Shown here piece by piece: positions 30,408 through 43,526 of a DNA stretch of 64,000 nucleotides. The stretch is from Pseudobdellovibrionaceae bacterium (lineage in GTDB: Bacteria; Bdellovibrionota; Bdellovibrionia; Bdellovibrionales; Bdellovibrionaceae). The notes beneath the pieces were generated by a model, which did not search any database, was not told the origin of the DNA, and saw only the letters and a list, made by a program, of their open reading frames with translations. The position numbers were made by a program, and so were the translations under genes. The stretch spans positions 62,001-126,000 of the forward strand of contig JAHBUV010000001.1 in NCBI GenBank assembly GCA_019637915.1, read 5' to 3'. Numbering within the stretch: position 1 is the stretch's first letter; every line of letters starts with the position of its first letter.

Positions 30408-30523
30408 AAAGTGACTCCTTGCTCTAGTCCGAGAGAGAGTAAGCAGAGACCTCGACCTGGTCAATGCTGCGAGAGGTCAGTGGCTTTCATCCCCCTCTCA
30501 CCTGGGCTTCGCAAAAAAACAAT

Positions 30524-30553
30524 TTGTTGAGTGCTTTCAGCGGGGTCTATCAT
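30524..30553 (+). promoter_or_regulatory. Likely sigma-70 promoter of fadIJ
   Basis: TTGTTG (30524-30529) and TATCAT (30548-30553) with an 18-bp spacer; the start point would be near 30560, leaving a short leader with GGAGG at 30563 before the fadI ATG. Confidence 0.4.
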
Positions 30554-30571
30554 CGAGACTCTGGAGGTTTC

Positions 30572-31915
30572 ATGAAGTCACCGCGGGATGTGGTTCTCAT
30601 TGACGGCGTGCGCACGCCCTTCGCCAAGGCCGGCACCAAACTCAAAGGCGTTCATCCGGCCGATCTCGGCAAGACGGCCTTGAAAGAGCTGACGGCTCGC
30701 ACCAATTTGGACGTGAATCTGGTCGATGAGGTCATCATCGGCAACACCGGCAATCCGGTCGATTCCGTCAACATCGGCCGCGTGGTGGCCTTGAACGCCG
30801 GCATCCCGCAGCGCACCTCCGCTTACACTGTCCACCGCAACTGCGCCTCGGCCATGGAGTCCATCTCGCAAGGTTATGAAAAAATCCGCTCGGGCACGAT
30901 GGACGTGATCCTCGCCGGCGGCACCGAGAGCATGTCGCAGATGCCGACGCTCCTGCCGGCGAAAATCCAGGGCCTCTTCGACAAACTCTTCGCCGCCAAA
31001 GGCCCGAAGCAGGCCCTGCCGCTTTTGTGGGCGCTTTTCAAAGCCGACGTGAAGCAGCTCCGCGCCTTGCTCCAGGGCAATATGCGCGACGAGTACTTCC
31101 CGGTGATCTCGGTCATGCAGGGGCTCACGGATCCCTTCGTCGGCATCAACATGGGCCAGACGGCCGAGATCCTCGCCAAGGAGTGGGGGTTGTCGCGCGA
31201 CACCCTGGACCGCTTCGCCCTGCGCTCGCACCAGCTGGCGAGCAAGGCCTGGAAAGAGGGCCGCATCAAAGAGGAGGTGGTGCCTTTGTACGTGCCTCCC
31301 AAATTCGATGAGGTCTTGTCCGAGGACATCGGCCCCCGCGACAATCAGACCCTGGAGGCCCTGACCAAGCTCAAACCCTTCTTCGACAAGCAGACGGGGA
31401 CCATCACCGCCGGCAACTCCTGCCCGATCACCGACGGCGCCGCCATGGTGCTCCTGATGTCGCGAGAAAAGGCCGAAGCCCTGGGCTACAAACCGACGGC
31501 CCGCATCCGCGGCTACGGCTTCGCGGGCCTGGAGCCCGAGCGCATGGGCCTGGGGCCGGTGTACTCGTCGCCGGTGGCTTTGAAGCGCGCCGGCCTGACG
31601 ATGAAGGACATCGGCCTCGTGGAATTGAACGAAGCCTTCGCGGCGCAGGTCCTGGCCTGCCAGAAGGCTTTCGCGTCCGATCAGTTCGGCCGCGACAAAC
31701 TCGGTCTCGGCGGCAAGGTCGGCGAGATCCGCGACGACATCCTGAACGTCAACGGTGGCGCCATCGCGTACGGGCACCCGGTCGGCGCCACGGGCACGCG
31801 CCTGGTGCTGACGCTGATGAAAGAAATGAAACGCCGTCAAACGCAGTTCGGTCTGGCGACTTTGTGCATCGGCGGCGGTCAAGGTGGGTCCATGGTTCTG
31901 GAGCTGGAGGCTTAA
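30572..31915 (+). CDS. fadI: Acetyl-CoA C-acyltransferase (3-ketoacyl-CoA thiolase)
   Basis: A 447-residue thiolase that cleaves 3-ketoacyl-CoA with CoA to acetyl-CoA and a shortened acyl-CoA. Nucleophile Cys91 lies in H-R-N-C-A-S-A-M-E-S; later come N-E-A-F-A-A-Q, N-V-N-G-G-A-I-A-Y-G-H-P-V-G-A-T-G-T-R and the second catalytic Cys in L-C-I-G-G-G-Q-G. Length and the partnership with a FadJ-sized multifunctional protein fit the FadI type. GGAGG sits five bases before the ATG. Its stop codon abuts the fadJ start codon with no gap, so the two subunits are made together. Confidence 0.93.
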   Translation: MKSPRDVVLIDGVRTPFAKAGTKLKGVHPADLGKTALKELTARTNLDVNLVDEVIIGNTGNPVDSVNIGRVVALNAGIPQRTSAYTVHRNCASAMESISQGYEKIRSGTMDVILAGGTESMSQMPTLLPAKIQGLFDKLFAAKGPKQALPLLWALFKADVKQLRALLQGNMRDEYFPVISVMQGLTDPFVGINMGQTAEILAKEWGLSRDTLDRFALRSHQLASKAWKEGRIKEEVVPLYVPPKFDEVLSEDIGPRDNQTLEALTKLKPFFDKQTGTITAGNSCPITDGAAMVLLMSREKAEALGYKPTARIRGYGFAGLEPERMGLGPVYSSPVALKRAGLTMKDIGLVELNEAFAAQVLACQKAFASDQFGRDKLGLGGKVGEIRDDILNVNGGAIAYGHPVGATGTRLVLTLMKEMKRRQTQFGLATLCIGGGQGGSMVLELEA

Positions 31916-34066
31916 ATGGCATACGATGTTCGTCCCCTCAAAGAGGCTTTCACCCTGCGCGCCGAAGGCGAGATCGCCGTCGTCACCTTCGACATCCCCA
32001 ATGAAAAAGTGAACAAGTTCTCGACCCCGGTGATGATGCGCCTGAAAGAGATCCTGGAGGAGCTGCGCGCCGGACCCTACAAGGCCGCGGTGTTCTTCTC
32101 GGGCAAGAGCAAGATCTACATCGCCGGCGCCGACATCGAGGAGATCAAGAACCTGAAGACGCCCGAGTCCTTCGATCAGGCCGTCAAGGCCGGTCAGGAG
32201 ATCATGAACATGGTCGAAGACCTGCCGATGCCGGTGATCGCCGCCGTGAACGGCGCCTGCGTCGGCGGCGGCTGCGAGTTCATCATGGCCTGCGATTACC
32301 GCATCGCTTCGGAGGATCCGTCCACGCGCATCGGCCTGCCGGAAATCCAATTGGGCATCATCCCGGGTTTCGGCGGCTGCGTGCGCATGCCGCGGATCAT
32401 CGGCCTGCAGGCGGCGCTGGACATCATCCTGGTGGGCAAGACCGTGCCCTCGAAAAAAGCGCAGAAATCCGGCCTGATCGATCGCACCGTGCATCCGGCG
32501 ATCCTTCAGGAGGAGGCCATGAAGTGGGCGAGGAGGCTCGTCAGCGAAGGCTCCGGCAAGCGCCGCAAGACCTTCAAGGCGAAGGGCGCCGTGAACGTGC
32601 TCCTCGACGGCCCGCTGAAGTTCGTCGTCTTCAAAAAAGCCAAAGAGACGATCCTGAAGAACACCCACGGCCACTACCCGGCGCCGCTCGCGGCCCTCGA
32701 GGTGGTGCGCAAAACCTACGGCCTGTCGGACCGTGAAAAGGCCTTGGGCATCGAGCGCGAGCACTTCATCGAGTGCGGCATGACCGACGTTTCGAAGAAC
32801 CTGATCCACGTGTTCTACCTGACCGAGATGGTGAAAAAACAGACCGGCGCGAAGGGCGACGTCAAAGGGCGCGACGTGAAGCGCCTGGGCATCCTCGGGG
32901 CCGGCACCATGGGCGGCGGCATCGCCTACACGGCGGCCGACAAGGGCATCGAGGTCCGCATGAAGGACCTGAACCCCGACGCCCTGTCGAAGGGATTGAA
33001 GCACGCGAGCGAGCTGTGGATGAAGCTCGTCAAGCGCAAGTCCATCGACAAGTACCAGTACAAACAGAAGATGGACCTGATCTCGACGACGACGGATTAC
33101 TCGGGCTTCGGCACGCTGGACCTGGTGGTGGAGGCCATCGTCGAGGACATGGGCATCAAGCAGAAAGTCATCGGCGAGACGGCGCGGAACATGCGCCCGG
33201 ACGCCATCATCGCCACCAACACCTCGTCGCTGTCGGTGACCGAGATGGCGAAGGGCCACCCGCGCCCGGAGTATTTCGCCGGCATGCACTTCTTCAACCC
33301 GGTGAACAAGATGCCCCTGGTGGAAGTGATCCGCGGCGAGAAGTCGTCCGACGAGACCGTCGCGACGGTGTTCGAACTCTCCAAGAAAATGGGCAAGATG
33401 CCGGTCGTCGTGAAGGACGGCCCGGGCTTCCTGGTGAACCGCCTGCTGCTGCCTTACATGGAGGAGGCGGCCTTCATGCTGCAAGAGGGCATGTCCATTG
33501 ATTTTGTTGATAAAGCCTACGTCCGTCAGTTCGGCATGCCGATGGGTCCCTTCGCCCTCATGGACGAGGTCGGCCTCGACGTCTGCCTGAAGGTGCTGAA
33601 GATCTTCCAGAAGGCCTATCCGGACCGCGTCGAGATCGCCCCGATCATGAGCGCTCTCGAGAAAACCGGCCGCCTCGGCAAGAAGAACAACAAAGGGTTC
33701 TACCATTACTCGGACGACGGCCGCCGCGGCGAGGTCGACCAGAGCGTGTACCAGGCCCTCGGCCTGTCGCAGCCCTCGAACCCGCACACCGCGGAGGAGT
33801 GCCTCGAGCGCGGCCTCTTCGCCATGGTGAACGAGTGCGCCCGCGCGCTCTTCGACGACAAGATCGTCGAGACGCCGAACGAGGTGGACCTGGCGATGAT
33901 CATGGGCACGGGTTTCCCGCCCTTCCGCGGCGGCCTCGCCCGCTATGCGGACAGCGTCGGGCTGGCGAATATCGTGACGAAACTCGAGAAGTATGCGACG
34001 GAACGCAAGGCTCATCGCCTGCAACCGGCCGACGCCCTTCGCCGGGCCCGGCGCTTTTACGAGTGA
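31916..34066 (+). CDS. fadJ: Enoyl-CoA hydratase / 3-hydroxyacyl-CoA dehydrogenase
   Basis: A 716-residue bifunctional alpha subunit of the beta-oxidation complex. The N-terminal crotonase domain (residues 1-190) shows I-A-G-A-D-I-E-E-I, V-N-G-A-C-V-G-G-G-C-E and I-P-G-F-G-G-C (oxyanion and catalytic glutamate region). The dehydrogenase domain begins near residue 320 with L-G-I-L-G-A-G-T-M-G-G-G-I-A (NAD site), then A-T-N-T-S-S-L-S-V-T, G-M-H-F-F-N-P-V-N-K-M and P-G-F-L-V-N-R. Both activities convert trans-enoyl-CoA to 3-ketoacyl-CoA for the thiolase encoded directly upstream. Size matches FadJ (about 714). Confidence 0.95.
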   Translation: MAYDVRPLKEAFTLRAEGEIAVVTFDIPNEKVNKFSTPVMMRLKEILEELRAGPYKAAVFFSGKSKIYIAGADIEEIKNLKTPESFDQAVKAGQEIMNMVEDLPMPVIAAVNGACVGGGCEFIMACDYRIASEDPSTRIGLPEIQLGIIPGFGGCVRMPRIIGLQAALDIILVGKTVPSKKAQKSGLIDRTVHPAILQEEAMKWARRLVSEGSGKRRKTFKAKGAVNVLLDGPLKFVVFKKAKETILKNTHGHYPAPLAALEVVRKTYGLSDREKALGIEREHFIECGMTDVSKNLIHVFYLTEMVKKQTGAKGDVKGRDVKRLGILGAGTMGGGIAYTAADKGIEVRMKDLNPDALSKGLKHASELWMKLVKRKSIDKYQYKQKMDLISTTTDYSGFGTLDLVVEAIVEDMGIKQKVIGETARNMRPDAIIATNTSSLSVTEMAKGHPRPEYFAGMHFFNPVNKMPLVEVIRGEKSSDETVATVFELSKKMGKMPVVVKDGPGFLVNRLLLPYMEEAAFMLQEGMSIDFVDKAYVRQFGMPMGPFALMDEVGLDVCLKVLKIFQKAYPDRVEIAPIMSALEKTGRLGKKNNKGFYHYSDDGRRGEVDQSVYQALGLSQPSNPHTAEECLERGLFAMVNECARALFDDKIVETPNEVDLAMIMGTGFPPFRGGLARYADSVGLANIVTKLEKYATERKAHRLQPADALRRARRFYE

Positions 34067-34620: not shown

Positions 34621-35283
34621 ATGAAGAAGCGGTCTTCGGCCTCCAAGGCCCTGATTCTGGTGATGGCTCTGACCCTGGCGGCCTGCGGGCGCGGCGGGGT
34701 GCAGGCCGGTTCGCGCGCGGCGCTGACCCCGGACGGCGGCGGCAACGGCGGTCAGGGCGCTTCGGGCCTGCTTGAAAAATGCGCCAACGGGCAAACGGCT
34801 TACGGGCGCGTGACGGAACAAAGCAACAGCGGCCGCGGCTTCCAGCAGATGGTGGAGGATTTCGTTTCCGCCACCCTCGAGCCGAGTTCCATCGGCACGG
34901 TGAGCGGTCAGTCCGGCGCCAGCACATGGGTCTCTTTGCGCCTGCGTCTGAGCGTGCAGGACGGCCAGTGGCAGTCGACGCGGAATAAAATGGAGATTCT
35001 GATTCACGACTCCTGGGTCGGTCAGTACAACGACCAGGGGCAGATCATCGCGGACTATCCCGTGACCTTGAGCGAAGCGAGTCAGGGCCGGCTCGATGCG
35101 ACGGCGCGCACTTTTCAAATCGTCTTCGCCGACGCCTACGGCTCCGTCACCCTGCAGGGTCAGTGGAACGATCAGGTCGCCACCGGCACGGTGAGCTTTC
35201 AGAACACGAAGCACGTCACCAACGGCACGCCGGCCGGCGGGATCCTGGGGCAGTTCAGCGTTCCCACCTGCTCCATTTTCTGA
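34621..35283 (+). CDS. Lipoprotein of unknown function
   Basis: A 220-residue lipoprotein: signal M-K-K-R-S-S-A-S-K-A followed by a hydrophobic core and lipobox L-A-A-C (Cys near 22), then a Gly/Asn-rich linker and a beta-rich domain (V-S-L-R-L-R-L-S-V-Q, E-I-L-I-H-D-S-W-V, G-S-V-T-L-Q-G-Q-W) with three late or linker cysteines. No family recognised. Tight GAGGGGAGC before the ATG. A sigma-54-like GGCACG-N4-TTGC sits at 34591-34604, but its start point would leave only five leader bases, so its relevance is doubtful. Confidence 0.75.
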   Translation: MKKRSSASKALILVMALTLAACGRGGVQAGSRAALTPDGGGNGGQGASGLLEKCANGQTAYGRVTEQSNSGRGFQQMVEDFVSATLEPSSIGTVSGQSGASTWVSLRLRLSVQDGQWQSTRNKMEILIHDSWVGQYNDQGQIIADYPVTLSEASQGRLDATARTFQIVFADAYGSVTLQGQWNDQVATGTVSFQNTKHVTNGTPAGGILGQFSVPTCSIF

Positions 35284-35288
35284 CAGCA

Positions 35289-35317
35289 TTGACAAAATCG
35301 CCTCTTCGGCCTTGAAT
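35289..35317 (+). promoter_or_regulatory. Consensus -35 promoter predicting a leaderless message
   Basis: TTGACA (35289-35294) and TTGAAT (35312-35317) are spaced 17 bp. Transcription would begin at about 35324, one base before the ATG at 35325, and no Shine-Dalgarno is present, so the mRNA would be leaderless. The ATG at 35316 lies inside the -10 element and cannot be used from this promoter. Confidence 0.55.
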
Positions 35318-35324
35318 GGGCCGC

Positions 35325-36425
35325 ATGCGGACGCTTTATGGCTTTGACGCGGATGTTCTGCATTCCGTCGCGGGCGGTCGGTCGGCGATCGACATCCCGA
35401 AATTGAATATTCACAACGACAGCGAGGCCGAGGCTTTCCTGCACTCCTACGGCTTTGACCTGAAGCGCGCCGGCGACGAGGACAAGCTGTGGTACTTCTA
35501 CCGCCGCGCCCTGGTGCTGTTGACGGAGCGCCTGGGGTTCCAGGAGAGCGAAATCCCCGAGGCCCTGCGCGATCGCCGCCACCTGCAGGACATCCGTTTG
35601 CTGCTGCTGTGGGCGAGCTCGGCCCGTCCCCATGACCGCGATCTGCAGCGCTGGAGCTGCGCCATCCTCCGCTGCATGCACGTCTACGTGCACGCCGAGA
35701 GCGATCTGTTCAGTTTTTTCTCCGAAGAGATCCAGGCCCAGGTCCTGGGCTCTTTCCAGCAAAGCGTCGTGCACGACGGCACCCGCCACAAGACTTACCT
35801 GAAGCGCTCCCTGCACGACCGCGACGCCGTCGAGCTCGTGGGCTTTCACATGAAGCCCTTCAAGAATTCCCAGAGCACGGTGATCAAGCTCCTGGCGAAA
35901 CCCGATGCCCTGGCCATGAAGGTGTTCGACAAGCTCGGCGTGCGTTTCATCACGAAGAACCTGTTCGACACCTTCCGCGTGATCCGCGCCCTCGTCGAGG
36001 AAAGCCTGATCAGCTACCCCCACATCATGCCGGACCAGAGTTCCAACAACCTGTACCCGGTCGATCTGTTCGTGAAGGTCTGCGAGAAGATCGAGAGCAT
36101 GCCGGTGAAGCCGGACGACGAGCGGATCGAGGAACTGTTCCAGAAGGAACTCGCAGCGGCGGGCGGGGACGCGATCCTGTTCCGCAAGGCCAACGAGCAG
36201 TCGGACACGCAGTTCCAGTTCATCAAGTTCATCACGCGGAAACTGATCGAGGTGAACATCCCGGGTCGCGACAGCTTCAGCTTCTTCTATCCTTTCGAGG
36301 TGCAGATCCTCGATGCCAGGGCCCATGAGAGGGCGCTGAGCGGGCCCTCGGAGCACGAGGCCTACAAAGAGCGCCAGCGCCAGGCGGCGCGTCGCCGTTT
36401 GTTCCCGGAAACGAGCCCGCCGTGA
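35325..36425 (+). CDS. RelA/SpoT-like nucleotidyltransferase-fold protein
   Basis: A 366-residue cytoplasmic protein that I do not place in a named family with certainty. Residues 325-348 read E-V-Q-I, then H334, A337, G340, H344, Y347 and K348, exactly the spacing of the RelA/SpoT synthetase signature E-V-Q-I-R-T-x3-H-x2-A-x2-G-x3-H-x2-Y-K. Upstream are K180, S184 and K188 (matching the K, S and K of the ATP-binding loop), D202-K-L-G-V-R207 (matching D-L-I-G-I-R, catalytic Asp) and Y244 near N-N-L-Y-P. The first Arg of the R-x-K pair is missing, and about 65 extra residues sit before E325. No HD hydrolase, TGS or ACT domain. Start chosen from the promoter at 35289. plsC overlaps its end as GTGA. 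Pyrophosphokinase activity is inference. Confidence 0.7.
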   Translation: MRTLYGFDADVLHSVAGGRSAIDIPKLNIHNDSEAEAFLHSYGFDLKRAGDEDKLWYFYRRALVLLTERLGFQESEIPEALRDRRHLQDIRLLLLWASSARPHDRDLQRWSCAILRCMHVYVHAESDLFSFFSEEIQAQVLGSFQQSVVHDGTRHKTYLKRSLHDRDAVELVGFHMKPFKNSQSTVIKLLAKPDALAMKVFDKLGVRFITKNLFDTFRVIRALVEESLISYPHIMPDQSSNNLYPVDLFVKVCEKIESMPVKPDDERIEELFQKELAAAGGDAILFRKANEQSDTQFQFIKFITRKLIEVNIPGRDSFSFFYPFEVQILDARAHERALSGPSEHEAYKERQRQAARRRLFPETSPP

Positions 36426-37141
36426 ATTGGCTGTCCTATCCGCGCGCCCTGATCATGGTGGCTTTGTATCCCTTCGTGCTGTGGTTTTTCTCGGTCTTCT
36501 GCATTTTGCAGAACCTGCTGTTCAACCGCCGCGACTGGGACGACGCCGTGGTGCGGGCCTGGGGACGGGTGTCCTGCGCCATGTTCGGCGTCAAAGTCAA
36601 AGTCGAGGGCCGGGAGAACCTGCCCGCCGGGGGCTGCATTTTCCTGTTCAATCACTCGAGCTTCTTCGACATCTTCACCATGGCGGCGGTCTTCCCGGGC
36701 CTGCGTTACGGCGCCAAGATCGAGCTCTTCCGCATCCCCGTTTTCGGCTTCGCCATGCGCCGGGTGGGGATCCTGCCCATCGACCGCGGCCGCCGCGAGA
36801 AAACCTTCGGCGTGTACCGTGAGGCCCATGACCGCCTTGAAAAAGGCGAGCGCTTCGCCCTGGCGCCGGAAGGCACCCGCCAGGACGAGGAGCGCTTGGG
36901 GCCGTTCAAGGCCGGGCCTTTCGTCTTCGCCATCAACACCGGGGCGCCCGTCGTGCCCCTGGTGATCAAAAACGCCTCGCGCATCATGCCCAAGCACAGC
37001 CTTTTTCCGAACTGGGGGGTGTGGTCGCGGGAAGTGCGTCTGATCATTCTGCCGCCGGTGTCCGCCACGGACTACGTCCTGAAGGACCGGCCGCAGCTGC
37101 AGGAACGCGTGCGCCGGGACATGCAGCCCTATCTCAGTTGA
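36422..37141 (+). CDS. plsC: 1-acyl-sn-glycerol-3-phosphate acyltransferase
   Basis: A 239-residue membrane-associated acyltransferase making phosphatidic acid. It has an N-terminal hydrophobic anchor (residues 7-32), the catalytic N-H-S-S-F-F-D (His-x4-Asp) motif near residue 77, the R-V-G-I-L-P-I-D-R-G block, and P-E-G-T-R-Q, which binds the glycerol phosphate. The start is GTG overlapping the stop of the RelA/SpoT-like gene, so the two are translationally coupled. PlsC controls entry of acyl chains into phospholipids, a step that stringent nucleotides inhibit one reaction earlier (PlsB) in E. coli, making this coupling notable. Confidence 0.93.
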   Translation: MNWLSYPRALIMVALYPFVLWFFSVFCILQNLLFNRRDWDDAVVRAWGRVSCAMFGVKVKVEGRENLPAGGCIFLFNHSSFFDIFTMAAVFPGLRYGAKIELFRIPVFGFAMRRVGILPIDRGRREKTFGVYREAHDRLEKGERFALAPEGTRQDEERLGPFKAGPFVFAINTGAPVVPLVIKNASRIMPKHSLFPNWGVWSREVRLIILPPVSATDYVLKDRPQLQERVRRDMQPYLS

Positions 37142-38588: not shown

Positions 38589-39449
38589 ATGGCTTTGCAG
38601 AAGATTGGTGTCATCGGCGCTGGGCAGATGGGGAACGGCATCGTGCAGGTGTGCGCGGGCAAGGGTTTGGAGGTGATCATGATGGACGTGGCGGCCGCCG
38701 CCCTGGAGAAGGGTCTGGCGACCATCGCTTCGTCCTGCGATCGTCTGATCAAAAAAGAAGCCCTCACCGAGGATCAGAAAAAACAGCTGCTCGGGAAAAT
38801 CCGCACCACGACCTCTCTCGCGGATCTGAAGGACTGCGACCTCGTGGTCGAGGCCGCCACGGAAAACGTGGAGCTGAAACTGAAAATCTTCCGCGAGCTC
38901 GATCAGATCGCGAAACCCGGCGCGATCCTGTGCTCCAACACCTCGTCGATCTCGATCACCCGGATCGCCGGCGCGACGAAGCGCCCGGAGCTGGTCGCGG
39001 GCATGCATTTCATGAACCCCGTGCCGCTGATGAAGCTGGTGGAGGGCATCCGCGGCCTGCAGACCTCGGACGAGACTTTCGCCGCGGTGAGGGGCCTCAC
39101 GGAAAAACTCGACAAGGTCTTCGTGGAGTCGGTGAAGGACATGCCGGGCTTCATCGTCAACCGCATCCTCATGCCGATGATCAACGAGGCCGTGTACACC
39201 CTGCACGAGGGCATCGCCTCGGTGGATTCCATCGACCAGGCGATGAAGCTCGGGACCAACCAGCCCATGGGTCCCCTGACCCTGGCCGATTTCATCGGCC
39301 TCGACACCTGCCTCGCCATCATGAACGTGCTGCACGAGGGCCTGGGCGATTCGAAGTACCGCCCTTGCCCCTTGCTGGTGAAGTACGTCGAGGCCGGCTG
39401 GCTCGGCCGCAAGACGGGCCGCGGTTTTTACAACTATCAAAACAAGTGA
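38589..39449 (+). CDS. hbd: 3-hydroxybutyryl-CoA dehydrogenase
   Basis: A 286-residue monofunctional dehydrogenase oxidising (S)-3-hydroxyacyl-CoA, short-chain by size. NAD site [12 protein letters not shown] at the N-terminus, [15 protein letters not shown], catalytic His in [18 protein letters not shown], and the closing [13 protein letters not shown] motif. First gene of a three-gene operon (gaps of seven and five bases to the crotonase and icmF). Together these handle C4 acyl-CoA units such as crotonyl-, butyryl- and isobutyryl-CoA. Confidence 0.95.
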
Positions 39450-39456
39450 GCGTGCC

Positions 39457-40251
39457 ATGAGTCTGGAATTTCAAACGATCAAATTGGAAAACGACGGGCC
39501 GGTGTGGTGGCTTTCCGTGCACCGCCCGGAGGCGCTGAACGCCCTGAATTCGCAGGTGCTGTCGGAGATGGGCGAGGCCCTGCGCATGGTCGGCGAGCTG
39601 CCGTTCGAGAGCGCGCGCGTGCTCGTCATCACGGGCTCGGGGGAGAAATCCTTCGTCGCCGGCGCCGACATCAAGGAGATCGCCGCCCTCAGCGAGGACG
39701 AGGCCGTGGGCTTCGCCCACCGCGGGCAGAACGCCTTTCATGAATTGAACCTGATGAAGATCCCGGTGATCGCCGCCGTCAACGGCTTCGCTTTGGGCGG
39801 CGGCTGCGAGCTGGCCCTGGCCTGCGATTTCATCGTCGCCGCGGAGAACGCCAAATTCGGTTTGCCGGAAGTGAGCCTGGGCCTGATTCCCGGCTTCGGC
39901 GGCACCGTGCGTTTGTCGCGGGCCGTGGGCGCGCGCCGCGCCCGCGAGCTGATCTACACCGGCGACATGATCCCGGCCGCGGAGGCCCATCGTCTGGGCC
40001 TGGTGAATCACGTCGTGCCGGCGGCGGAACTGCGCCCGGCGGTGAAGGCCCTGGCGGAAAAAATCCTGGGGCGCGCGCCGGCGGCCGTGGGGATGGCGAA
40101 AAAATCCATCAACCGCACCTGGGACATGGACATCGAGGAAGGCCAGCGCTTCGAGGCGGAAAGCTTCGCCGAGCTCTTCGCCACGCAGGACGTGCGCGAA
40201 GGCACGGCCGCTTTCATTGAAAAACGCAAAGCCCAGTTCAAAGGTGAATAA
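39457..40251 (+). CDS. Enoyl-CoA hydratase (crotonase)
   Basis: A 264-residue crotonase-fold hydratase. V-A-G-A-D-I-K-E-I (oxyanion), [16 protein letters not shown], then [15 protein letters not shown] with the catalytic Glu pair, and a C-terminal trimerisation helix A-F-I-E-K-R-K-A. It hydrates crotonyl-CoA to 3-hydroxybutyryl-CoA, the substrate of the dehydrogenase encoded just upstream. Seven bases separate it from hbd, five from icmF. This small-chain set complements the long-chain FadIJ complex. Confidence 0.95.
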
Positions 40252-40256
40252 AGACT

Positions 40257-43200
40257 ATGCCCCAGCATCCCGTTCGCATCGTCACCGCCGCCAGTCTCTT
40301 TGATGGACACGACGCCAGCATCAACATCATCCGCCGCATCCTGCAGGACCAGGGCGCGGAGGTGATCCACCTCGGCCACAACCGCTCGGTGAGCGACGTG
40401 GTCAAAGCGGTGCTGCAGGAAGGGGCGCAGGGCGTCTGCGTGAGCTCCTACCAGGGCGGGCACATGGAGTACTTCAAGTACATGAAGGATCTCCTCGACG
40501 AGAACGGCGCGCCTTACGCCACCGTGTGGGGCGGGGGAGGCGGCGTCATCATCCACGATGAGAAGCGCGAACTGGAGGAGTACGGCATCTCGCAGATCTT
40601 CCATCCCGACGACGGACGTCGTTTGGGGCTGGAGGGCATGATCCAGATGATCGTCGACGGCTCGGACTTCGATCCGGTCGAAAGATCCCTGCATCCGGAT
40701 CAATTCGCCGGCGGCAAAAAGCAAAAGCCCGTTTCGGGCGAAGGCCTGAAGAATCCCTTCGCGGAGGATCCGATCCCGTCCCAGGCTTTGGGGATGGCGC
40801 TGACCTCCATCGAAAACGGCCGGGCGGCGACGTTGCAGGAATGGAAGCTCGAGGGTTTCCGCCGCGCCGGCGCGGCCCCCCTGGTGCTCGGGATCACCGG
40901 CACGGGCGGCGCGGGCAAATCGAGTCTGATCGACGAGCTCACGCAGAGATTCCTGAACGCCTACCCGGACAAAAAGATCGCCATCGTCTGCGTCGATCCG
41001 TCGAAGCGCAAGACCGGCGGTTCCCTGTTGGGGGACCGCATCCGCATGAACTCCCTGTCGCGACCGCGCGTGTTCATGCGCTCGGTGGCGTCGCGGGGTT
41101 CGGGCAAGGAGATCGCCCAAAGCCTGCCGGAGATCCTGAATTTCCTGAAGCAGCTCGATTTTGACCTCATCATCGCCGAGACCTCCGGCATCGGTCAGGG
41201 CAACATGGCCATCACCGAGGTGTCGGATCTGTCGATGTACGTGATGACCTCGGACTTCGGGGCGCAGTCGCAGCTGGAAAAGATCGACATGATCGATTTC
41301 GCCGACCTGATCGCCGTGAACAAGGCCGACCGCCGGGGGGCCCAGGACGCCCTGCGGGACGTGACGAAGCAGTACAAGCGTTCGCGCAAGCTGTTCCACG
41401 ACGAGGGCGAGGTGCCGGTCTTCCTCACGCAGGCGAGTCAGTTCAACGACGGCGGCGTGAACAAATTGTTCTTCAAACTGAGTGAAATGCTGGAAGCCAA
41501 GGCGCCGGGTTTCGCCCTGAACGAGAAAATCCGCCGGACCATGCTGTCGGCGGAGGAGAACGTCATCATCCCGGCTGATCGGCAGAATTACCTGGCCGAG
41601 ATCGTGGCAACGGTTCATCGCTACAAGGAGCGCACGAGCAAGCTCGCCGACCAGGCCTCGAAGCTCGGCGGCCTGCACGCCCTGCGCGGCGATCTGAAGC
41701 TCGAGTCCTCGCAGCTCGAGGGCCTGGAGAAGAAATTCTCCGCCGATTTCACCAAAGAGGAGATGCAGCAGATCCAGGGCTGGGACGAACTCACCCGGCG
41801 CTATGCCGGCGATGATTTGGTGTTCAAGGTCCGCGACAAGGAGATCCGCCAGCCTCTGGTGCGCGAGTCTTTGAGCGGCACGAAGATCCGCCGGGTGATC
41901 CTGCCCACTTACCGTGACTGGGGCGATCGCTTCAAGTGGCTGCGCCTCGAAAACGTGCCGGGCGAATTCCCCTACACGGCGGGCGTGTTCCACCTGAAGC
42001 GCGCCGATGAGGACCCGAAGCGCATGTTCGCGGGCGAGGGCACCCCGGAGCGCACCAACCGTCGGTTCCACTATCTCTGCAAGGGCGAAACCGCCCATCG
42101 CCTGTCGACGGCCTTCGATTCCGTGACCTTGTACGGTCAGGATCCCGATCCGCGCCCGGACATCTTCGGGAAGGTCGGCGAGTCGGGCGTCAGCATCTGC
42201 ACGCTCGCCGACATGAAGAAGCTCTATGCGGGCTTCGATCTGTGCGCGCCGAACACCTCGGTGTCGATGACCATCAACGGCCCGGCGCCGATGATTTTGG
42301 CGTTTTTCTTCAACACCGCCATCGATCAGCAGGTGGGGAAAAAAGAAAAAGAGCTCGGCCGTCCTTTGAGCGAGGCGGAGCGCGCCCAGGTGTCCGAGTG
42401 GACCTTGCAGCAGGTGCGCGGCACGGTGCAGGCCGACATCCTGAAGGAGGACCAGGGCCAGAACACCTGCATCTTCTCGATCAATTTCGCCTTGAAAATG
42501 ATGGCCGACATCCAGGAGTACTTCGTCCGCCGGAAGGTGCGGAACTTCTATTCCGTGTCGATCTCGGGCTACCACATCGCCGAGGCCGGCGCGAACCCGA
42601 TCAGCCAGCTGGCCTTCACGCTGTCGAACGGTTTCACCTTCGTCGAGAGCTACCTCGCCCGCGGCATGAACATCGACGACTTCGCGCCGAACTTGAGTTT
42701 CTTCTTCTCCAACGGCATGGACCCCGAGTACTCGGTGCTCGGCCGCGTCGCCCGCCGCATCTGGGCCGTGGCCATGCGCGATCTTTACAAGGGCAACGAC
42801 CGTTCGCAGAAGCTCAAGTACCACATCCAGACGAGCGGCCGATCCCTGCACGCGCAGGAGATCGACTTCAACGACATCCGCACGACCCTGCAGGCGCTGC
42901 TGGCCCTGTACGACAACTGCAACAGCCTGCACACCAACGCCTACGACGAGGCCATCACCACGCCGACGGAGGAGTCCGTCCGTCGCGCCATGGCCATCCA
43001 GATGATCCTGAACCGCGAGTTCGGCCCCATGAAGAACGAAAACCCCAACCAGGGCTCGTTCTTCATCGAGGAGCTCACGGAGCTGGTCGAGGAGGCCGTG
43101 CTGCGCGAGTTCAGCCGCATCAACGAACGCGGCGGCGTCCTCGGCGCCATGGAGACCCAGTACCAGCGCTCGAAAATCCAGGAAGAAAGCCTGTACTACG

Positions 43201-43526
43201 AGCGCCTGAAGCACACGGGCGAGCTGCCGATCATCGGCGTCAACACCTTCATCGACCCGAAGACCCTGGCCAGCGACTACGTGCCGCCGAAGATCGAGCT
43301 GGCGCGCGCCTCGTACGAAGAGAAGAACCAGCAGCTGACGAATGTGCGCTCGTATCAAAAAGAGCACTCCTCGGAAGGCGAGCAGGCCCTGACGGAGCTC
43401 AAAGAGACCGCCCTGCGCAACGGCAACATCTTCGAGGCCCTGATGAAGGCCGCCCGCCACTGCAGTTTGTACCAGATGAGCCAGGCCCTCTACGAAGTGG
43501 GCGGCCAATACCGACGGAATCTGTAG
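40257..43526 (+). CDS. icmF: Fused isobutyryl-CoA mutase (IcmF)
   Basis: A 1089-residue fusion of three parts: a B12-binding domain (residues 1-135, cobalt-ligand His18 in D-G-H-D), a MeaI-type G-protein chaperone (P-loop [12 protein letters not shown] at 212-223, later V-N-K-A-D), and a C-terminal acyl-CoA mutase barrel from about 540. It interconverts isobutyryl-CoA and n-butyryl-CoA by a radical mechanism using adenosylcobalamin; the GTPase protects and reloads the cofactor. Phe578 in G-V-F-x-x-K-R lies where IcmF differs from methylmalonyl-CoA mutase (Tyr), so methylmalonyl-CoA is an unlikely substrate. It ends the hbd-crotonase operon, joining valine-derived isobutyrate to beta-oxidation. 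Confidence 0.95.

Follow-up and report, generated by a model that had tools for sequence, protein, structure and literature searches.

A divergent RelA/SpoT-like synthetase fold in the TIGR04552 family of Bdellovibrionota

According to our analysis the TIGR04552 family is a subfamily of the RelA/SpoT fold that has not been recognised as such in the databases and literature searched. The member described here is a protein of 369 residues encoded in a 64-kb window (the whole stretch of DNA analysed, 64,000 nucleotides from a Pseudobdellovibrionaceae genome), and its synthetase fold and intact catalytic core are well supported, to a degree that leaves us little doubt. Sequence comparison indicates that the donor site and the catalytic residues are kept and the acceptor-binding G-loop is rebuilt. 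It is rather probable that the protein is a catalytically competent RelA/SpoT enzyme with a single synthetase domain and altered acceptor handling, whose chemistry, acceptor and regulation we infer below. The present analysis establishes the fold, the conservation of the motifs, the distribution and the lack of a linked antitoxin gene in two conserved contexts; new here are the phylum-wide distribution, the lack of an antitoxin partner, the rebuilt G-loop and the placing of a frameshift in a published evolved line.

Family membership and predicted fold

Residues are numbered here from Met1, the ATG at 35316 (Table 1), and since the preliminary description of this gene began at Met4, an in-frame ATG at 35325, three has to be added to all of its residue numbers. 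The protein matches two NCBIfam profiles over the full length, TIGR04562 with 358.9 bits (E 3e-107, curated cut-off 140) and TIGR04552 with 356.6 bits (E 1.6e-106, curated cut-off 125), and on these sequence matches it is a member of TIGR04552/TIGR04562, the same family in substance. Both entries share the single name 'TIGR04552 family protein' with no function attached, and the one paper found to mention the family names it as a mutated locus, in agreement with the earlier impression that no activity had been assigned to such a protein.

Table 1. Features of the TIGR04552-family gene and its neighbours (positions in the window)
Feature	Position	Strand	Basis
TIGR04552-family RelA/SpoT-like synthetase, 369 aa	35316..36425	+	NCBIfam matches, AF2 model, PDB matches
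N-terminal helical domain, residues 1-130	35316..35705	+	conservation, separate structure prediction
Synthetase (nucleotidyltransferase) domain, residues 131-369	35706..36422	+	fold matches cover model residues 127-353
ATP-loop K180-x2-K183-x3-S187-x3-K191	35853..35888	+	four invariant; aligned to YwaC (6fgk) K..S..K
D205-x-x-G208-V-R210, catalytic Asp motif	35928..35945	+	conservation; D205 aligns to RelSeq D264
G-loop start, P239-x-[R/Q]241-S242-x-N244-x-L246	36030..36053	+	alignment; comparison with own Rel
Helical insert within G-loop, residues 247-292 (helices 249-261, 268-285)	36054..36191	+	AF2 model
G-loop second half, N293 ... [Y/F]300-x-x-I-[Q/K/H]304-F305-x-x-R308	36192..36239	+	alignment
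E328-V-Q330 ... G343 ... H347 ... Y350-K351	36297..36368	+	conservation; E328 aligns to RelSeq E323
Downstream acyltransferase (PlsC/LPLAT-like)	36422..37141	+	PF01553 1.6e-28; beside 28 homologs
Upstream gene, lipoprotein-type start, no known family	34621..35283	+	beside 27 homologs

The Pfam profile PF04607 (RelA_SpoT) gives 15.2 bits on the window protein, below its curated cut-off of 27. At E<=1 it matches 81 of 88 diverse family members (best 9.7e-9), and it exceeds the cut-off in two orthologs, L123 with 30.3 bits over profile positions 4-111 of 113 and G115 with 36.7 bits; the 81 matches and the score of L123 support sequence homology to RSH synthetases at the level of the family. The TIGR04552-family profile in turn matches YwaC and RelSeq, and in these alignments the two catalytic residues, Asp and Glu, fall in register. 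Profile-profile comparison, a check of the kind proposed earlier, was weak against RSH and small alarmone synthetases (SAS) of the same phylum (probability 18%, P 0.0013 for the RSH of the phylum). Modest support comes from a narrow HMM built on 11 Rel proteins, which found 33 of 89 family members at E<=1 versus 2 of 880 shuffles. Alarmone enzymes have usually been discovered by sequence profiles. The TIGR04552 family lies mostly below the thresholds of the profiles used for them, and the standard RSH census aligned only hits better than 1e-5 (PMC3153485).

The AlphaFold2 model, built on an alignment of 88 sequences, reached a pLDDT of 92.1 and a pTM of 0.87 and contains the nucleotidyltransferase core on which the preliminary description had made its reading depend. 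Its best PDB matches by Foldseek are S. aureus RelP, Rel and B. subtilis RelQ, so RelP and RelQ, with which a superposition had been suggested, do stand among the closest structures. In VIA-align the first 24 PDB rows belong without exception to RSH or small alarmone synthetases (Z 10.8-7.6), led by RelQ 5ded (Z 10.8, rmsd 3.3 over 149 residues, model 128-349); in a viral structure library the RelA/SpoT rows were weak. Fold prediction, fold comparison and the profile matches in orthologs all back the reading as a divergent RelA/SpoT-type synthetase. The first unrelated fold, that of DNA polymerases mu and lambda (Z 7.3), is a reminder that this architecture is common to pol beta-type nucleotidyltransferases, and some other transfer chemistry, for example of AMP or NMP to a protein or metabolite, might be carried out on it; the motifs K..S..K, D..GVR, EVQ and H..YK belong, however, to the RSH branch, with which they align in register, and we consider such a chemistry very unlikely.

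The protein had been described as a stand-alone synthetase lacking a hydrolase. The second part agrees with our results, as no Pfam match to HD hydrolase, TGS or ACT domains was obtained in the 369 residues and no HD fold was seen N-terminally, but the synthetase domain does not stand by itself, a conserved all-helical domain of 130 residues being present in front of it. This N-terminal domain has near-invariant residues (G21, S23, D26, Y45, G46, W113 and H126), and when predicted separately (residues 1-130, pLDDT 85.5) it had no PDB match, with a best Z of 2.7; a hydrolase hidden in it was set aside on the same result, a missing match being no proof. Residues 1-30 are confidently ordered in the full-length model only, an indication that this segment may pack against the synthetase domain.

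Catalytic residues and the acceptor-binding G-loop

Once renumbered, the RelA/SpoT signature lies at exactly the offsets first described, with E328-V-Q-I, H337, A340, G343, H347, Y350 and K351 at 0, 9, 12, 15, 19, 22 and 23, and a six-frame search of the window with the pattern E.Q.{6}H..A..G...H..YK gives a single match, which starts at residue 328 of the ORF. The ATP-loop and catalytic-Asp motifs (K183, S187, K191 and D205-x-x-G-V-R210) were likewise found as claimed. Conservation was assessed in 88 diverse homologs, down to ~26% identity, and a second alignment (n=111), in which the catalytic residues are also invariant, gave the same picture. The residues invariant in all 88 include K180, K183, S187, K191, D205, G208, R210, T213, N244, N293, F323, F324, P326, E328, Q330, H347, Y350, K351 and R361 and, further N-terminally, P81, H122, D130 and Q142. 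Most of the listed signature positions are thus under selection, G343 being kept in 87 of the homologs, but H337 (46/88) and A340 (6/88) are not conserved. When the family profile is compared with solved RSH sequences, D205 aligns to Asp264 and E328 to Glu323 of RelSeq, and these two residues together with the downstream Q330 are all present, invariant and in RelSeq register. In RelSeq D264 and E323 hold the catalytic metal ions.

The G-loop departs from this picture of conservation. Its register was obtained by hand alignment, from motif spacing and secondary structure, against the long Rel of the same genome, in which the segment P-G-R-F-K-D-F-I corresponds to P-x-[R/Q]-S-x-N-x-L, with the invariant N244 replacing Asp. 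Neither the RxKD motif of long RSH nor its -DY part, as seen in SAS, is therefore kept, [R/Q]-S-x-N-[T/N/S]-L standing in its place across the 88 homologs. Ahead of the next strand the stretch is ~46 residues longer than in Rel, with two helices in the AF2 model, and the aromatic residue on which the acceptor base would be expected to stack comes after this insert; by alignment, position 300 (Y in 70/88, F in 16/88) would sit at the place of the base-stacking Tyr, Y308 of RelSeq, and a divergent homolog carries the canonical RSH G-loop motif YRSLH at the place of residues 300-304. The single insert of 65 residues noted at first is right in total size, but relative to the own Rel it is split into three pieces, ~5 residues before the G-loop, ~46 within it and ~12 in the next hairpin, as judged by hand alignment and motif spacings. 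The Arg of EIQIRT is also not kept in the family.

Because both RxKD and the EIQIRT Arg are lost, guanine specificity cannot be assumed, the loss of RxKD being the main reason; in long RSH proteins this motif has been linked to a GTP/GDP preference, and small synthetases retain the DY that follows (PMC3153485). The rebuilt G-loop would mean that the acceptor, or the control of its binding, differs from that of RelA, RelP and RelQ. A loop so strongly rebuilt and enlarged would also suit an RNA-directed enzyme, one that pyrophosphorylates or otherwise nucleotidylates tRNA or some other RNA at its 3' end as do the toxSAS FaRel2 and CapRel, but in a housekeeping or regulatory role, and the tRNA pyrophosphokinase CapRel is indeed among the matching folds (Z 7.0). 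CapRel ranks below the (p)ppGpp synthetases, however, and whereas FaRel2-type enzymes take the CCA end in a basic groove (PMC11559606), here both the G-loop insert, with a median net charge of -2, and the N-terminal domain, with a median of -6, are acidic; as the gene is moreover a near-universal core gene with no linked antitoxin, we regard an RNA acceptor of this kind as unlikely.

The loss of the canonical guanine-loop motifs could equally be read as a turn to adenosine, that is, to synthesis of pppApp, ppApp or pApp in the manner of Tas1 (Apk1) or of the exported alarmone synthetases, and both Tas1 (6ox6, Z 7.0) and an exported synthetase (8vx3, Z 7.7) match the fold in VIA-align. Yet most enzymes of this kind known so far exhaust ATP as toxins or after export, so a single-copy housekeeping version would need to work slowly or under tight control, and by eye the N-terminus has no hydrophobic export signal; an adenosine alarmone synthetase is in our opinion distinctly unlikely.

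Distribution, gene neighbourhood and loss in an evolved line

The family was found in 261 of 291 sampled Bdellovibrionota genomes and in 209 of the 223 of high quality (~94%), almost always in single copy, and in none of 14 control genomes; the genomes without it are mostly small. A replacement of Rel by the TIGR04552 protein was considered and rejected, because 18 of 20 family-lacking genomes keep a PF04607 synthetase, nearly all of Rel size, the other two genomes being of low completeness. The own genome has both, its only PF04607 match over the cut-off being a 742-aa long Rel. It follows that the gene is not needed for basic synthesis of ppGpp, the bacterial signal of starvation. Several genomes of the phylum encode another stand-alone RelA/SpoT protein (~330-370 aa, PF04607 67-75 bits), distinct from TIGR04552, and further divergent PF04607 proteins (337-460 aa) start with a hydrophobic stretch, by eye a possible signal peptide, and could be candidate exported synthetases.

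No relative of the TIGR04552 protein was found in the plasmid collection or among the IMG/VR viral contigs. Phage carriage was rejected as well, the sole tblastn match in the phage collection, 'Microcystis phage MaAM05', being a fragment of a bacterial chromosome. This record (MW495066.1, 274 kb), which carries a TIGR04552 homolog, appears to be misfiled as phage and encodes ribosomal proteins, secE-nusG-rplK-rplA, tRNA ligases, secD/F and a type III secretin. The L1 ribosomal protein encoded there shares just 47-58% identity with Bdellovibrionota L1, and on this sequence ground members of the family may also occur outside the phylum.

The neighbours of the gene in the Bdellovibrio-like branch are a small lipoprotein-like gene upstream and a PlsC-type acyltransferase gene downstream, the latter overlapping its stop by 4 bp here, as often in this branch, while in the Bacteriovorax-like branch it diverges from pgpA-recA and points toward an alpha/beta hydrolase; a phospholipid gene is present in both contexts. 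An antitoxin-like partner gene was found in neither of the two (divergent pgpA/recA; lipoprotein-acyltransferase), PADLOC gave no relevant defence match, and a toxin-antitoxin or defence role was discarded on these grounds. In one branch (L038, L039 and L047) an iron-sulphur oxidoreductase gene follows downstream in the same direction, with one extra gene between in L039 and L047. By eye from the translations, the wider surroundings in the window (30464-34066 and 38589-43526) hold fatty-acid oxidation genes, namely for thiolase, FadJ-like, hydroxyacyl-CoA dehydrogenase and enoyl-CoA hydratase proteins, as well as a fused acyl-CoA mutase and G-protein chaperone domain (IcmF-like).

In the evolved line B of Bdellovibrio NC01 a one-base deletion in DOE51_RS08710, a 'TIGR04552 family protein', exceeded 75% (PMC9888234). 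In genome G148, which we infer to be NC01 from the fit of its coordinates, the deletion falls on an A within a Glu codon that lies a few residues past the equivalent of N244, and the frameshift would remove the catalytic Glu and all that is downstream of it. Under those laboratory conditions the line could accordingly do without the gene; selection may have favoured the loss, or it may have hitch-hiked. Tolerance of the loss in this one line (PMC9888234) would be compatible with an RSH-derived scaffold or sensor that no longer catalyses any reaction; the invariance of all catalytic residues in homologs down to ~26% identity speaks against it so clearly that we find it scarcely credible.

Predicted activity and comparison with known systems

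We propose, judging from the conserved motifs, that the TIGR04552 protein is probably a nucleotide 3'-pyrophosphokinase (alarmone synthetase), whichever nucleotide is its acceptor. Mg-ATP would be held by the conserved K180/K183/S187/K191 loop and the metal ions by D205 and E328, and pyrophosphate would be transferred onto the 3'-OH of an acceptor nucleotide, the base of which is stacked on the aromatic residue 300, with the N-terminal helical domain and the G-loop insert probably serving regulation. The first candidate acceptor would be a guanosine nucleotide, giving (p)ppGpp, an assignment that we hold to be plausible without relying on it. An RSH-like mode of working is assumed here, yet we do not class the protein as a canonical (p)ppGpp synthetase, since the G-loop was examined and has a different motif. 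More tentatively, this phylum-wide housekeeping enzyme of the RSH fold might act on an acceptor other than GTP/GDP and, through its rebuilt G-loop, produce a new alarmone nucleotide or a regulatory 3'-pyrophosphorylation of RNA or tRNA, which the predators would use in addition to classical ppGpp signalling.

Predatory bacteria spend the attack phase starved. If the protein is active, nearly all Bdellovibrionota have a core gene that has been overlooked, and a second synthetase would take part in the starvation signalling of the predators. Given the unusual acceptor loop, the choice of substrate is a question that a single purified protein could answer directly.

Among known systems, the toxSAS (FaRel2, CapRel) and Tas1/Apk1 also have the synthetase fold without a hydrolase (Z ~7 for CapRel and Tas1), but the TIGR04552 gene has no linked antitoxin or immunity gene and no export domain was seen in its product; it is a near-universal core gene, with no relatives on plasmids or viral contigs. 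With RelQ/SAS1 (5ded, 5dec) and RelP/SAS2 (6ex0, 6fgk) the protein has the core fold in common (Z 10.8-9.5, ~150 residues aligned), together with the lack of a hydrolase domain, the K..S..K motif, the catalytic Asp and Glu and the Gln after the Glu; unlike them, it has the extra 130-residue N-terminal helical domain, a G-loop larger by ~46 residues and a C-terminal H..YK spaced as in long RSH. From the long RSH (RelSeq 1vj7/24io, M. tuberculosis Rel 5xnx) it differs by lacking the HD, TGS and ACT domains, by [R/Q]SxN in place of RxKD, by the replaced Arg of EIQIRT and by the missing Arg of R-x-K-x3-S, K180 standing one position earlier, whereas the C-terminal spacing E-x-Q ... G-x3-H-x2-Y-K is identical and RelSeq Asp264 and Glu323 have their counterparts in D205 and E328.
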